Assembly (NCBI GenBank): GCA_902727895.1
Contig: CACVAP010000020.1
Location: 1 to 43,501, forward strand
Direction: 5' to 3'
Source: an uncultured Sulfurovum sp.
GTDB taxonomy: Bacteria > Campylobacterota > Campylobacteria > Campylobacterales > Sulfurovaceae
Length of the DNA stretch: 43,501 bases
The translations under genes were made by a program, and so were the position numbers. The notes under the pieces were generated by a model that worked only from the letters and a program-made list of their open reading frames with translations, ran no database searches and was not told the DNA's origin. Below are positions 32,835 through 39,539 of the stretch, in pieces. Each line of letters starts with the position of its first letter. The first letter of the stretch is position 1.

Positions 32835-34640
32835 CTATTTTTCCTCTTTATTCCTAAAAGAATCTTTGACATTATCCACTAAAACACACCAATGCTTTCG
32901 ACCTTTTCCCTTAGCTTTTATAACATACCCCTTAGACTCCGACAGAGGATGTTTATAATCACTAGGCATCATAGCATTAGTATTGTCCATCAGTATAGGA
33001 ATAAAGAACAGTGACACCAAAGTCGCAGCCATAGAACCAAAAATAAGTGCTACCCCTAAACCTCCAAATATTGGATCCGTTGCTAAAAGCAAAGATCCTA
33101 AAATAATGGCAACAGCTGTTAACATAATAGGTTTTGCTCTCGTGGCTGTTGCAACAGCAATGGCTCTTTTCTTCTCCATCCCCTCTTCTATGAGTGACTT
33201 AGTAAAGTCAATCAATAAAAGAGAACTTCTAGCAGAAATTCCCATTAATGAAATAAATCCAATAAGAGAGGTCGCTGTCAAAAAGAAATTGGTTTCTAAA
33301 ACTATCAGCTGTATTTTGTCAGTAATCCAATGACCAATGATAACTCCAATAATAGAAAGAAAACTACCTATGAGTACAATCCCACTCAAGGCAAACGACT
33401 TATAATAGACAACTATAAGTAAAAACATCAAAACAAGTGCTGCAATAAATGCACCACCTAAATCTCTAAAGGTATCAAGCGAAACTTTCATCTCACCATC
33501 CCATCTTAATAACATCTGAGCACCAGTTTGCTTATCTACTAAATTCAGATCAAACATGTACGTATTGATTCCTGTTACTTTGGTGACGTTAAATTCATCT
33601 GCCAATTTCTCTATCATGGTCTCTCGTGCTTCAAGTAAAGGGTAAACTTGACTCACCATGTCACACTCTGCTGTAACAGCTACATAATTCTTTAAATTCT
33701 TTCTAAAAATACTTGGGCTAGAGCGTATCCCTTCAACACTTATAACTTCTGAAAGAGGTATCATCAGCCCTTCTCGGTTAATAAGCCTTAAAGAAGAAAG
33801 CTTAGCACGTAAAGCATCTGTTGAACTTCGTGCTAACATTCGTGTTTCATCACTCAAACGTAAAAATATAGGAATTTGGTCTTGTTGATCTCTCGTGTTT
33901 TTAACAGCAACAGCTGTCCCTTTAAATGCAAGATACGTAATTTGATTCACTTGGTCAACACTTAATCCAGCACGAATGATTTTCTCTTTATCTGGTACTA
34001 AATTGTACTTCGTATAAAGATCATCTTGCATAATGTCTACATCAACCAAACCTTCTGTTTCATTCAATATATCAGCAACACGGGTAATGGTATTTCGTAA
34101 AAGTCTGTCATCTTTTCCAAAAAGCTCAATAACAATGGTCGCTAAAGTAGGTGGTCCTGAAGGCATCTCTGTAAAACGAATAGAAGTATGAGGAACAATC
34201 TCTCCACACTCAGCTTGAATCTCTGGACGTATTCGATGTACCATCAGATAAGAAGGTTCTTCTCTCTCATGTTTATCAGTCAAATTAATAACAATTTCTG
34301 CTTGGTTCTTCATGTTTTTAAAGGCTGAGCCTTTTACTAAGCCAGCATAATCAAGAGGTGCGCCCTGTCCTAAGTTAATCCCCATATTTAAAACTTCTTT
34401 TTCATGCATCATGTAGTTTTGAACACAAGTAGTTACCTTTTTAGTCTCTTGAATAGAAGCATTGGTAGCTGTATCAATGTAAATAGTAAAAGTATTTGCT
34501 GACTTTCCAGGAAGCATTTTGGCTAAAACTAATTTACTTGGAATCATTAAAATAGCACCAAGCATTGAGAAAATCACAATGAGCGTAACAATCCACTTGT
34601 TTCTAGCTTTTGAAATAATATTGTAAACAAAACTTTCCAT
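32835..34640 (-). CDS. RND efflux permease, C-terminal half (split)
   Basis: The second half of a hydrophobe/amphiphile-efflux-type RND permease (601 residues): TM7 (about 15-40), the second large periplasmic loop, and TM8-12 (about 385-555). GISARSSLLLIDFTKS corresponds to the TM10 region holding Lys940 in AcrB; here it is Arg. Together with the upstream gene it makes a 1142-residue pump. The start codon shares its A with the previous stop (TAATG), and GGGGAG lies 7 nt upstream, so it is translated by itself and is not merely a frameshift product. The C-terminus carries a charged extension of about 40 residues. Confidence 0.85.
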   Translation of the reverse strand: MESFVYNIISKARNKWIVTLIVIFSMLGAILMIPSKLVLAKMLPGKSANTFTIYIDTATNASIQETKKVTTCVQNYMMHEKEVLNMGINLGQGAPLDYAGLVKGSAFKNMKNQAEIVINLTDKHEREEPSYLMVHRIRPEIQAECGEIVPHTSIRFTEMPSGPPTLATIVIELFGKDDRLLRNTITRVADILNETEGLVDVDIMQDDLYTKYNLVPDKEKIIRAGLSVDQVNQITYLAFKGTAVAVKNTRDQQDQIPIFLRLSDETRMLARSSTDALRAKLSSLRLINREGLMIPLSEVISVEGIRSSPSIFRKNLKNYVAVTAECDMVSQVYPLLEARETMIEKLADEFNVTKVTGINTYMFDLNLVDKQTGAQMLLRWDGEMKVSLDTFRDLGGAFIAALVLMFLLIVVYYKSFALSGIVLIGSFLSIIGVIIGHWITDKIQLIVLETNFFLTATSLIGFISLMGISARSSLLLIDFTKSLIEEGMEKKRAIAVATATRAKPIMLTAVAIILGSLLLATDPIFGGLGVALIFGSMAATLVSLFFIPILMDNTNAMMPSDYKHPLSESKGYVIKAKGKGRKHWCVLVDNVKDSFRNKEEK

Positions 34641-36265
34641 TAAGCACTCCCCTTTTTATGCTCACTATCTTTCTTTTCTGTGCTAGGCTCATCAAACTTA
34701 ATTAATTTCTTTGCTAAATACGGAGCAAAAACATAAGCAACAAAAAGAGAAACAGCCAAAGCTACAGGAACATTCAAAGGAATAGGCGTCATAAATTGCC
34801 CCATCATTCCTCCTACAAATGCCATAGGAATCATCGTTAACATAATGGCAATCGTTGCAACATTTGTCGAAGGACCAATCTCATCTGTTGCTTGAACAAT
34901 AATCTCAGAGAAAGAAAGCCCTTGTGACTCTGGTAGGTGCATACGTCGGTGAATATTTTCAATCACAATAATTGCATCATCAACAATCAATCCCAAAGAG
35001 AGTAAAAAAGCAAATAGCGTAATACGATTAATGGTTTGACCTGTCTGATAAGCAATAAAAAGGGTTAATGCCAAAATCATCGGAACAGCAATGGTGACAA
35101 CCAAAGATTCACGCCATCCTAAAAAGGGAATAAGAATCGCTGCAATAATAAAAATGGTAATCACCAAATGATGTACCAATTCATTAACAGCCTCATTGGC
35201 ACGATCACCATAATTACGTGTAATTATGTATCCCACACCCTGCTCTTTAAATACAGCAGCATTTTTAGCCAACTCATCCAATGCACTTTGCGCAATATCT
35301 ACAGCATTTGTTCCTTTTAATTTAGAAACTGTCAAGGTAATCTGATCTCCAGCTTCAACAAATTTCACTTTCGTACTTTGAGTATCTTTCTTTTGGTAAG
35401 TTAAAAGTACTGATTGAAAATTCTGAACATCATAACTGTACTCAATATTAGCAAGACTTTTTAGGTAAATGGGAGATCCCAAATACTGAGCAACTATAAG
35501 ATTTTTTAAATCATCAATGTCTTCAATTGCATTTTTTATACCAAAAACCGTTAACTGACCTGTTGCAGATGTTGTATCAATTTCAGGTGCATTACTTGAA
35601 ATAGAACGAATGGCCTTCGCTACTTCTCCTAAAGAAATATGATAAGCTGATAATTTTTGTAAATCTATAAAAACATTGAACTGTGGTTTTTTCACCCCTT
35701 TTAGCGTCGTTTTAGAAACATTATCCAAGGCATTAATATCTTGTTGAATTTCGCGAATGGTTTTATAGAGTTTAACATTATCAAGCTTTTTCTCAGAGTT
35801 TTTATAGAAAGCTACAGTTAAAATGGGGATGTCAATATCAATATCAAAAGGTTTAACTAAAGGAGGTAAAGTACCTTTTGGAAGTTTATCTAAATGTTGC
35901 ATGACCTTATCATAAAGTTTAAGATTTGAAGACTCTCTATCTTCTCCAATATAATACTGAATATTAAGGATACCAGCATTGTTCATAGCAGTTCCATAAA
36001 CATGTTGAACACCCTTAATCTCACGAATACGTCGCTCTAAAGGTTTAATAATAACGTTTTCAATCTCTTTGGGAGTAGCCCCAGGGATAGATACCATGAC
36101 AGATCCACCACTTACCTGAATCTGGGGGTCTTCTTCTCTTGGCATCATCTCCAAAGAGACATAACCAAGTAAAATAATGGCGAAAGCGAGTATAGGAGTC
36201 AAAGGATTCGCTAGAAAAATGGTCGCAAGATGTCCAGCGATATTTTTAATCTTATAAGGCTTCAT
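34640..36265 (-). CDS. RND efflux permease, N-terminal half (split)
   Basis: The first half of an RND transporter (541 residues): TM1 (about 17-38), first periplasmic loop with the SIPGATPKEIENVIIKPLE signature, and TM2-6 (about 365-525). LIVDDAIIVIENI carries the Asp pair of the proton-relay in TM4. The protein ends after TM6 with a Lys/Glu-rich tail, exactly where a full-length RND protein would continue to the linker and TM7. No ribosome site is seen before ATG 36265; TATACT just upstream suggests a leaderless mRNA. Substrates are unknown; metal or drug efflux are both possible. Confidence 0.87.
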   Translation of the reverse strand: MKPYKIKNIAGHLATIFLANPLTPILAFAIILLGYVSLEMMPREEDPQIQVSGGSVMVSIPGATPKEIENVIIKPLERRIREIKGVQHVYGTAMNNAGILNIQYYIGEDRESSNLKLYDKVMQHLDKLPKGTLPPLVKPFDIDIDIPILTVAFYKNSEKKLDNVKLYKTIREIQQDINALDNVSKTTLKGVKKPQFNVFIDLQKLSAYHISLGEVAKAIRSISSNAPEIDTTSATGQLTVFGIKNAIEDIDDLKNLIVAQYLGSPIYLKSLANIEYSYDVQNFQSVLLTYQKKDTQSTKVKFVEAGDQITLTVSKLKGTNAVDIAQSALDELAKNAAVFKEQGVGYIITRNYGDRANEAVNELVHHLVITIFIIAAILIPFLGWRESLVVTIAVPMILALTLFIAYQTGQTINRITLFAFLLSLGLIVDDAIIVIENIHRRMHLPESQGLSFSEIIVQATDEIGPSTNVATIAIMLTMIPMAFVGGMMGQFMTPIPLNVPVALAVSLFVAYVFAPYLAKKLIKFDEPSTEKKDSEHKKGSA

Positions 36266-37328: not shown

Positions 37329-37402
37329 ACAAGTCCTTTATTGAAAATAATTATAACATGTATCTTTATAGAGACCATTAACTATTGGTTAATTATTCAT
37401 TG

Positions 37403-37431
37403 TTGGATGATTAATTCTATTAGATTATAAT
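37403..37431 (+). promoter_or_regulatory. Promoter of the sRNA candidate
   Basis: TTGGAT (37403-37408) and a perfect TATAAT (37426-37431) have the ideal 17-nt spacing. A transcript would start near 37438. The remainder of 37329-37402 shows small AT-rich dyads only. Confidence 0.65.
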
Positions 37432-37437
37432 TTTGCT

Positions 37438-37577
37438 ATGACAAACAAATGTCTTTAACATTGTTCACGAGATTAAGTATGTAATTGAACTCCTTTGAAA
37501 TATACTCCCTTGATAAAACATATTTAAACCTCCTTTGTAATAGCCCTCGTGGGCAATGTTAAAAATATTTTTTGTTT
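37438..37577 (+). ncRNA. Small RNA candidate with three anti-Shine-Dalgarno motifs
   Basis: A probable independent transcript of about 140 nt. An 18-bp stem (37454-37471 with 37546-37563, two G-U pairs) encloses a second 10-bp stem (37473-37482 with 37518-37527, one G-U pair). The 5' end (ACAAACAAA) can also pair with TTTGTTTGT in the 3' tail. After the long stem comes AATATTTTTTG, a terminator U-tract. Three C-rich motifs, CTCCTTTG (37490-37497), CTCCCTTG (37505-37512) and CCTCCTTTG (37529-37537), lie in the apical loop (two) and the 3' bulge (one). They match the 16S rRNA 3' tail and are complementary to AAAGGAG. G-U pairs, U-tract and TATAAT all favour this strand. I do not recognise a known family. 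Confidence 0.6.
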
Positions 37578-37631
37578 GTTCTTTCTTTTTACACTTCTCA
37601 TGATATTATTACCCTCTAAACTTTTCATTTA

Positions 37632-37644
37632 AGGATTAACCATT
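37632..37644 (+). promoter_or_regulatory. Ribosome site indicating a non-canonical start
   Basis: AGGA (37632-37635) is 6 nt from ATT (37642-37644) and 9 nt from ATA (37645-37647), but 21 nt from the first ATG. An in-frame stop at 37630-37632 limits the possible starts. Confidence 0.6.
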
Positions 37645-38319
37645 ATAAAAATTTTAATGATAGAAGATGACTATGAAATAGCACAAATTCTTACTGAATA
37701 CCTAAGTAAATTTGATATTACCGTTACTTCAGTTGAAGAACCATACATTGGGCTATCACATCTTACTCAAGATAATTATGATCTACTTATCTTAGACTTA
37801 ACCCTACCAGGGATAGATGGTCTTGAAGTTATACCTAAAATTAGAAAAACATCTTCTATTCCAATTATAGTTTCTTCTGCACGTGATGACATTACTGACA
37901 AGGTCATTGCCATGGAAAGAGGTGCTGATGATTATATGCCTAAACCATATGACCCACGTGAACTGGTTACCCGTATTAAAACCATTTTACGACGAACACA
38001 AAATAATACACAAAACATTACTGAAAATAGCCTTTTTAGGCTCAATAGTGAAGCTCGAAGTATTATCTTTAAAAATGTTATGATGGAACTTACTGCTGCT
38101 GAATTTGAAATCTTAGCCATACTCGTTCAACATGCTGACTCAGCCATTTCACGTGAACAACTTCTTTATGAGAGCGAACATATAGATGATAACTCTTCTA
38201 TTAAAAATATTGATGTTATCATCTCTCGTATTCGTCATAAATTATCAAATATTGATCCTGAAAATACTTATATTAAACCCGTGAGAGGTATTGGCTATCT
38301 TTTAACTGAGAAAATCTAA
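37642..38319 (+). CDS. OmpR-family response regulator (ArsR/CprR-like)
   Basis: A two-domain regulator. The receiver domain (about 1-120) has the acidic pair in IEDD, phospho-acceptor Asp in LLILDLTLPG and Lys in MPKPYD. The winged-helix DNA-binding domain (about 130-225) ends with TYIKPVRGIGYLL. It most resembles the ArsR (HP0166) and CprR regulators of Helicobacter and Campylobacter. Starting at ATG 37657 would begin inside strand beta1 (MIEDD). The natural N-terminus, M-(I)-K-I-L-M-I-E-D-D, needs ATT 37642 or ATA 37645, and the ribosome site fits these. It overlaps the kinase start by one base. Confidence 0.9.
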   Translation: MIKILMIEDDYEIAQILTEYLSKFDITVTSVEEPYIGLSHLTQDNYDLLILDLTLPGIDGLEVIPKIRKTSSIPIIVSSARDDITDKVIAMERGADDYMPKPYDPRELVTRIKTILRRTQNNTQNITENSLFRLNSEARSIIFKNVMMELTAAEFEILAILVQHADSAISREQLLYESEHIDDNSSIKNIDVIISRIRHKLSNIDPENTYIKPVRGIGYLLTEKI

Positions 38320-39539
38320 TGCGAAACATTTCTGTTTCAGCTTTCATTAACACACTTTTTTCTCTGGTTTTAGCACTCTTATTTACAGCTCTCTTTTTCT
38401 TTATCTCTTGGGATGGAGAACGACAAAAAAGAGATGATATCAACCGATATAAACTCATCTCTAACTTACTATTATCAACAGCAAAACTAAAATTAATTGA
38501 AGAACGAGAAAAACAATTCTATAAAGATTTTGAATTAAGACCTGTCTCTGTTGATGAGAGTAAACTCTTGCTGCTTAATAGTGGAGAAGTTTTTTTTGAA
38601 AGTGAATCTGTTTACGGAAAAATGCAAATTTTCACCATTGCTAAAAATAAATATATCTACTTACAACGTTTTGGATATAGTCTGATGATACAAGATAAAA
38701 AATCGAGTACAGCACGTATCAGTATCATTGTATTTGTAGCTGCTATCATTACTTCCCTCTTAATTTTCCTCTATATTGCAATTATGCGAAAACTCTCTCC
38801 TTTAAAAAAACTACATCAACAAATTGAAGAGTTTGCACAGGGAAATCTAGATATTAAAATTAACCAACGCTCCACAGATGAGATTGGAAAGATTGCTAAA
38901 AGTTTTGATGACGCTATACATTATATTCGTAGTTTACTAGAGTCTAAAAATCTTTTTATGCGTAACATGATGCATGAACTAAAGACGCCAATTACCAGAG
39001 GTCGTATTGCCATTGAGATGGTAGAGGATGGAAGTTCTAAGGAGATGCTTATTCGTGCTTTTGAACGAATGAATGAACTTATTGGAGAATTAGCTCACGT
39101 AGAACGTTTAACAACACAAGGATTTCAACCTCAAATTAATGAAGCGAATATAGATAATATAATTGATGATAGTATTAGCCTTCTTCTTTGTGAAAAAAGT
39201 AAATTAACTATTGATACAGAACATGAAAGCCTTGAAACTGACCCCAAATTATTAAGTTTAGCCATTAAAAACTTACTTGACAATGCACTTAAATATAGCG
39301 AAGATGATAGAGCAAGTATTATTACAAATGAAAAAAGTATCAAAGTTATTTCTAAAGGAAAAAGCTTAGAACATTCTCTTCAATACTATTTAGAACCCTT
39401 TACGCAAGAAGAGAAACGTAATCCTGGTTTTGGACTAGGTCTTTACATTGTTAATAATATTGCCCATCGTTTAAACTACGCATTAAACTATTATCATAAA
39501 AATGGACATAATATTTTTGAATTAAGGCTCAAACCATAA
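38319..39539 (+). CDS. Sensor histidine kinase (ArsS/CprS-like)
   Basis: A 406-residue membrane kinase: TM1 (about 9-30), a periplasmic sensor of about 100 residues, TM2 (about 133-155), HAMP (about 156-208), the H-box MMHELKTPITRGR with the phospho-His, the N-box IKNLLDNALKYS, and the G2 box PGFGLGLYIV. The G1 box (DxGxG) is degenerate, replaced by ISKGKSLEHS, as also seen in ArsS-type kinases. Coupled to the response regulator by a one-base overlap. The signal is not evident; the relatives respond to acid or control growth and biofilm genes. Confidence 0.9.
   Translation: MRNISVSAFINTLFSLVLALLFTALFFFISWDGERQKRDDINRYKLISNLLLSTAKLKLIEEREKQFYKDFELRPVSVDESKLLLLNSGEVFFESESVYGKMQIFTIAKNKYIYLQRFGYSLMIQDKKSSTARISIIVFVAAIITSLLIFLYIAIMRKLSPLKKLHQQIEEFAQGNLDIKINQRSTDEIGKIAKSFDDAIHYIRSLLESKNLFMRNMMHELKTPITRGRIAIEMVEDGSSKEMLIRAFERMNELIGELAHVERLTTQGFQPQINEANIDNIIDDSISLLLCEKSKLTIDTEHESLETDPKLLSLAIKNLLDNALKYSEDDRASIITNEKSIKVISKGKSLEHSLQYYLEPFTQEEKRNPGFGLGLYIVNNIAHRLNYALNYYHKNGHNIFELRLKP

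Follow-up and report, generated by a model that had tools for sequence, protein, structure and literature searches.

Comparative analysis of the window, by which we mean the whole stretch of 43,501 nucleotides, points to a genuine, strongly conserved small RNA (sRNA) that displays three anti-Shine-Dalgarno (anti-SD) motifs, and that lies directly upstream of genes for an OmpR-type response regulator (RR) and its sensor kinase (HK). This predicted sRNA probably acts in trans within an envelope-stress circuit, in which the RR would activate the protease HtrA together with a set of RNAs rich in anti-SD motifs that repress translation. The features on which this proposal is based are as follows, all of them on the plus strand.

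37376..37420, plus strand: predicted regulator box of four repeats with an 11-bp period (ATTAACTATTG, GTTAATTATTC, ATTGTTGGATG, ATTAATTCTAT), conserved in homologues
37426..37431, plus strand: -10 element TATAAT
37438..37575, plus strand: sRNA of about 138 nt, predicted from homologues, covariance model R1 and a fold z of -5.95
37454..37471, plus strand: 5' arm of the closing/terminator stem, with an outer extension at 37447-37452
37476..37506, plus strand: internal hairpin H1 (AGTATGT, 37476-37482, with ATATACT, 37500-37506)
37490..37497, plus strand: anti-SD motif 1, CTCCTTTG, in the H1 loop
37505..37512, plus strand: anti-SD motif 2, CTCCCTTG, partly within the foot of H1
37529..37537, plus strand: anti-SD motif 3, CCTCCTTTG, with an invariant TAATA directly after it
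37546..37563, plus strand: 3' arm of the closing stem, followed by AATATTTTTTG, with an outer extension at 37565-37570
37601..37609, plus strand: separate RR promoter with the -10-like TGATATTAT, retained in two relatives (G015 and G017)
37642..38319, plus strand: OmpR-type RR of the ArsR/CprR type, probable activator (Pfam Response_reg, Trans_reg_C)
38319..39539, plus strand: ArsS-family sensor histidine kinase (NCBIfam NF038389, 391.7 bits against a cut-off of 250)

The sRNA and its conservation

The basic architecture agrees with a preliminary description made from the sequence alone. TTGGAT (37403-37408), a 17-bp spacer and TATAAT (37426-37431) sit at the coordinates given there, and so does the 18-bp closing stem, together with its outer extension and AATATTTTTTG tail. 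Two of the readings attached to these elements hold in part: TTGGAT is present but, rather than being simply a -35 hexamer, belongs to the conserved four-repeat box, and the U-tail is weaker in the aligned homologues. Both ends of the sRNA are predicted, the 5' end as 7 nt past the -10 element and the 3' end as the U-tract. A generic sigma-70/terminator scan, whose performance was not above that on shuffles, did not list the window promoter. The predicted folding energy is -34.1 kcal/mol, compared with -16.7 +/- 2.9 kcal/mol in shuffles (z -5.95), and three of the four CTCCYTTG sites found on both strands of the 43.5-kb window lie in a single 48-nt stretch inside the sRNA. At the gathering threshold, Rfam 15 gave no relevant match in the window or at the box-driven RNAs of 20 loci, so that the candidate sRNA is, as had been proposed, previously undescribed; all three of its anti-SD motifs are conserved.

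A covariance search over Campylobacterota, suggested in the preliminary description, was run on 399 genomes of the order, where model R1 found the RNA in 28 of the 34 genomes of the window's genus, normally in one copy, plus a weak 29th match (G029), and gave no match outside this genus. The genus consists of uncultured Sulfurovum-type MAGs, and the genomes compared are mostly MAGs. When 60 relatives were searched with the DNA, the spacer turned up in most members of the window's genus, with nothing convincing beyond it, and a pattern scan of public genomes led again to uncultured Sulfurovum-type MAGs. A 20-bp exact blast match in G015 (L031) was rejected as a homologue, as it sits in an unrelated region.

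Wherever the locus is complete, all three motifs are kept. In the alignment the closing stem varies by paired substitutions, and ACTCCTTT, ACTCCCTTGATA and ACCTCCTTTGTAATA are nearly constant. Two-sided compensatory changes occur at 10 of the 20 closing-helix pairs, with 97% of cells paired; over the structure as a whole, the observed number of pairs with two-sided changes was reached in 0 of 500 shuffles. Homologous spacers lacking conserved stems and CUCC motifs, named earlier as evidence that would speak against a functional RNA, were thus not what we encountered, as stems covary and motifs are conserved. The nested 10-bp stem of the preliminary description (TTAAGTATGT/ACATATTTAA) is disrupted in a distant clade and paired in 90% of cells, and has therefore weaker support than the smaller hairpin H1 (97%), whose AGTATGT/ATATACT pairing is kept in the distant clade via a G-U to A-U change. 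The motifs had been placed in predicted unpaired regions, and this largely holds: they are essentially invariant, with mean unpaired probabilities over 27 homologues of about 0.97, 0.6 and 0.94 for motifs 1, 2 and 3, respectively, compared with about 0.4 for the molecule as a whole. Motif 2, the least accessible of the three, reaches 0.77 in the window RNA.

The 16S rRNA tail reads ...CCUCCUUUCU, with CCUCCUUU as its core. The earlier proposal that the motifs imitate this end finds no support in their conserved flanks CUCCUUUGUAAUA and AUACUCCCUUGAUA, which differ from the tail; for the organism's own 16S 3' end, our search found no 16S gene in the assembly. With GUAAUA and GAUA conserved outside the anti-SD core, particular SD contexts fit better than 16S mimicry. 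For the same reason, it is quite improbable that the RNA is a global decoy, whose repeated CCUCC would mimic the 16S tail and broadly lower SD-dependent initiation, or act on ribosomes. Three copies of the anti-SD core and the CCUCCUUU included in motif 3 would suit such a role, but the flanks also recur in independent members of the RNA family (CUCCUUUGUAAU, ACUCCCUUGAUA) in a form unlike the 16S tail, and this speaks for selected mRNA contexts. Highly improbable is a function of the loops as Rho-loading or RNA-binding-protein sites with no mRNA pairing. The loops are C-rich and G-poor, as such sites would be, but it is the exact letters of the motifs that are conserved, not C content alone; these letters match SD complements, and the window RNA, like those of another family (f8), has intrinsic terminator-like ends.

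The repeat box and its promoter class

The distance from the first repeat of the box to the -10 element is 49 bp. A search with two repeats (up to 3 mismatches) returned, besides the homologues, two further intergenic promoters, both of which precede distinct RNAs that begin with ATGAAAGATG and contain CCTCC or CTCC. In 32 of the 34 genus genomes TATAAT-N6-ATGAAAGATG, a pattern free of any box sequence, greatly outnumbers its reversed control, and nearly all intergenic matches examined carry the box at the identical 49-bp spacing. We also built a promoter matrix from 26 non-homologous sRNA promoters, leaving out the window homologues and the two promoters found via the window box. This matrix ranks position 37376 first among about 87,000 positions, with 31.1 bits against 0.1 for the runner-up, and in related contigs (365,820 positions) all 23 matches above 10 bits are promoters of window-RNA homologues. 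Such a held-out result implies that the promoter class of the window RNA is common to RNAs unlike it in overall sequence. The window RNA is, to judge from these promoter sequences, one member of a large promoter-defined set, which the preliminary description had missed. Across the order, the promoter model has matches in 111 of 399 genomes, although many single matches are weak and may be due to chance.

The window's own genome (G000) holds seven strong box promoters, on contigs C56, C35, C68, C17, C26, C82 and C20, the last being the window. Among the 47 non-redundant box-driven transcripts of the genus, 44 have at least two CTCC, and the means are 3.04 for CTCC and 0.02 for GGAG, against 0.73 CTCC in shuffles. 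Two other loci of the same genome (G000:C39:48898 and G000:C80:2150; L174, L177) have a GAAAGAT 5' end, a weak box and at most a few CUCC motifs, and are perhaps degenerate, decaying copies of the family. A short-ORF reading of ATGAAAGAT at the family 5' ends was discarded, as the frames, judged by eye, stop at inconsistent lengths.

Box-driven RNAs from other genera of the same family (L257, L258, L222, L234) repeat CUCCUUGU or UUCCUUGU, not CUCCUUUG, which suggests that the putative seeds are lineage-specific across the genera of the family. The f8 boxes stand before small RNAs whose terminators are clear; some of these RNAs lie in tandem, many contain CUCCUU or CUCCCUCCUU, and several have one CTCC or none. 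Tandem pairs in f8 and relatives (L256, L265, L244, L231, L245) lie about 150-220 bp apart and end in canonical terminators. One box-driven RNA from yet another family, f15 (L260, G234:C104), has a CTCCTTTGTAATGAAATATACTCCCTTGATAGA block almost identical to that of the window RNA, a likeness that could reflect transfer, convergence or misbinning, the contig being 3.3 kb long and part of a MAG.

The regulator, htrA and the proposed circuit

The sRNA is flanked by lgt, on the opposite strand, on one side and by the RR and kinase genes on the other. In nearly all carriers it lies immediately upstream of the RR gene, on the same strand. In one genome (G016) a different gene takes the place of lgt, and thus the RNA travels with the regulator and not with lgt. 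The RR gene has no AUG, GUG or UUG at the expected start; instead, AUU stands about 6 nt past an SD, AAGGA (window 37631-37660). This apparent AUU start is at 37642, the first AUG being at 37657, and yields IKILMIEDD, a sequence that both the genus and f8 retain, with AUC or AUA at this position in some relatives; a start codon of AUU type is therefore likely from sequence. Elsewhere in the window (32835-36265, minus strand), an AcrB-type RND permease seems to be split into two abutting ORFs of 541 and 601 aa, which match the N- and C-terminal halves of the Pfam model.

On contig C56 of the window's genome, a box-driven RNA precedes an HtrA-family gene. The htrA genes of the genus (L268, which is G000:C56:14500-19500, L269 and L270) have upstream of them the box and an anti-SD-rich leader with no evident terminator, which may be an sRNA-like leader on a stress-protease mRNA. 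The box thus stands upstream of TIGR02037 proteins both in the genus, behind the anti-SD leader, and in f8, a link that concerns a box in common rather than regulation in common. Over the order, the box is likewise found ahead of htrA-RR-HK operons, which encode orthologues of the window RR. In f8, the promoter of this operon is the best match in three genomes (G382, G250, G294) and is also matched in G198. Since the model applied was trained on genus sRNA promoters only, that is, on those of another family, these matches are independent evidence tying the box to the RR. The G382 operon encodes an RR with 59% identity to that of the window and an ArsS-family kinase (NF038389, 396.5 bits for the f8 kinase). 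In C. jejuni, too, htrA adjoins cprRS.

From these data we strongly infer that the activator is the neighbouring ArsR/CprR-type RR, whose binding to the box is predicted. The anti-SD sRNA could also stand with its box bound by another OmpR-type regulator, the ArsR/CprR-type linkage being incidental, since several OmpR-type paralogues are present in the same genomes. We consider this unlikely, because in two families with unlike gene orders the box accompanies orthologous RR-HK genes, and because the window and f8 RRs hardly differ in their recognition-helix region, SSxKNIDVIISRIRxKL.

The position of the sRNA directly before the RR gene would also suit a cis-acting leader or attenuator of the RR-HK operon, in which the long stem terminates or reads through while the C-rich loops sense ribosomes or SD availability, and some relatives of the RNA do serve as the htrA leader. 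This reading is distinctly unlikely, on two grounds. First, two relatives (G015 and G017, each about 99% complete) lack both sRNA and box, although lgt, the RR and, by position, the locus are present, and their RR retains its own -10 and leader. Second, most other members of the promoter family sit away from RR genes. The first of these observations also makes unlikely a role as ribosome-binding-site sensor for the adjacent two-component gene, which had been put forward earlier.

If the RNA is instead trans-acting, as we favour, the window RNA would be one of about seven box-controlled members in its genome. The ArsR/CprR-type RR would bind the four 11-bp repeats, which overlap the -35 region, and on envelope stress would switch on the window RNA, the other multi-anti-SD RNAs and htrA together. 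The three C-rich seeds would be held in loops, the long closing stem would double as terminator, and the seeds would pair with certain mRNAs at their SD regions, in contexts such as UACAAAGGAG, and bar ribosome entry. Envelope or respiratory protein synthesis would then fall while HtrA handles misfolded proteins. This target class is put forward tentatively. In three genomes (G000, G024, G011), genes with ACAAAGGAG-type SDs encode a Gcw_chp protein, haem-copper and cbb3 oxidase subunits, cd1 nitrite reductase, NuoA and lipoproteins. However, ribosomal protein S9 and a Nudix protein are among them as well, and a search for ACAAAGGAG-ATG and TCAAGGGAG-ATG returned few genes, with no orthologue recurring between genomes.

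We lean slightly towards a broader reading, namely, an ArsR/CprR-type envelope-stress regulon common to Campylobacterales, in which the four 11-bp repeats couple HtrA to fast-diversifying, multi-gene sets of anti-SD RNAs. The sequence evidence suggests a previously undescribed RNA arm of the cell-envelope stress response in deep-sea Sulfurovum-type bacteria. Post-transcriptional stress control is little described in environmental Campylobacterota, where we found in the literature no counterpart of the sRNA arm of sigma-E/Cpx. If the proposal is true, dozens of new regulatory RNAs in many genera can be predicted from a single promoter motif, the ArsRS/CprRS-type regulator gains a defined operator, and anti-SD arrays have an independent origin outside Listeria and alphaproteobacteria.

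Comparison with known systems

By sequence, motif or Rfam match, the predicted window RNA is not a member of the LhrC, alpha-r14 or sigma-E/Cpx sRNAs, with each of which it nevertheless has features in common. LhrC1-5 of Listeria monocytogenes are multicopy, respond to envelope stress under control of LisRK, and block translation by three redundant CU-rich sites (PMC4132741). Here, likewise, there are several copies with redundant CU-rich sites (the seven strong promoters and mean of 3.04 CTCC given above). OmpR-type control, with which the four-repeat box and RR-HK linkage would be compatible, and translational blocking are proposed. However, phylum, sequence and structure differ, and no homology to LhrC was found by sequence or structure, the window RNA having no Rfam match and a covariance model restricted to its genus within the order. 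Unlike LhrC1-5, moreover, the box-driven members are highly diverged, have the repeat box in common with htrA, and belong to a promoter class that spans many genera.

The alpha-r14, or 'cuckoo', RNAs, among them NfeR1, resemble the window RNA in three unpaired anti-SD motifs, in divergent stems with stable motifs and in a two-component link; the anti-SD seeds of NfeR1 silence ntrB translation, and NfeR1 itself has LsrB as activator and NtrC as repressor (PMC10746234). Whereas alpha-r14 has three hairpins, each with an identical unpaired CCUCCUCCC, the window RNA has a single long closing stem, a small hairpin and differing motifs (CTCCTTTG, CTCCCTTG, CCTCCTTTG), and neither it nor the RNAs of the 20 loci matched a curated family in Rfam 15.

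The statement that no such RNAs were known in Campylobacterota is upheld for repeated arrays, none of which we found in the literature, and needs qualifying for single motifs, given that CJnc230/FlmE of C. jejuni, the one anti-SD sRNA that our literature searches turned up for this phylum, has one putative anti-SD (CCUU) and no repeated array (PMC11187230). This sRNA differs further in being RpoN-dependent, encoded downstream of flgE and flagellar in function (PMC11187230). As for the regulator, the window kinase, well above the NF038389 cut-off, places the system beside ArsRS of H. pylori, and CprRS of C. jejuni is tied to envelope functions (PMC9449129, PMC11162790). ArsR binds AT-rich sites and has in H. 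pylori no clear described consensus (PMC11162790), and these two papers describe an anti-SD sRNA regulon for neither system.

In the sigma-E/Cpx systems, DegP/HtrA-type quality control is accompanied by sRNAs that lower envelope protein synthesis, such as MicA, RybB, MicL and CpxQ (PMC6737893). A box in common with htrA was found here in the genus and in f8, and a matching fall in envelope protein synthesis is proposed. Those sRNAs associate with Hfq and act through different seeds (PMC6737893), whereas here anti-SD arrays would act under an ArsS-family system. The proposed regulon would have a post-transcriptional arm comparable to that of sigma-E, made in this case of repeated anti-SD modules.
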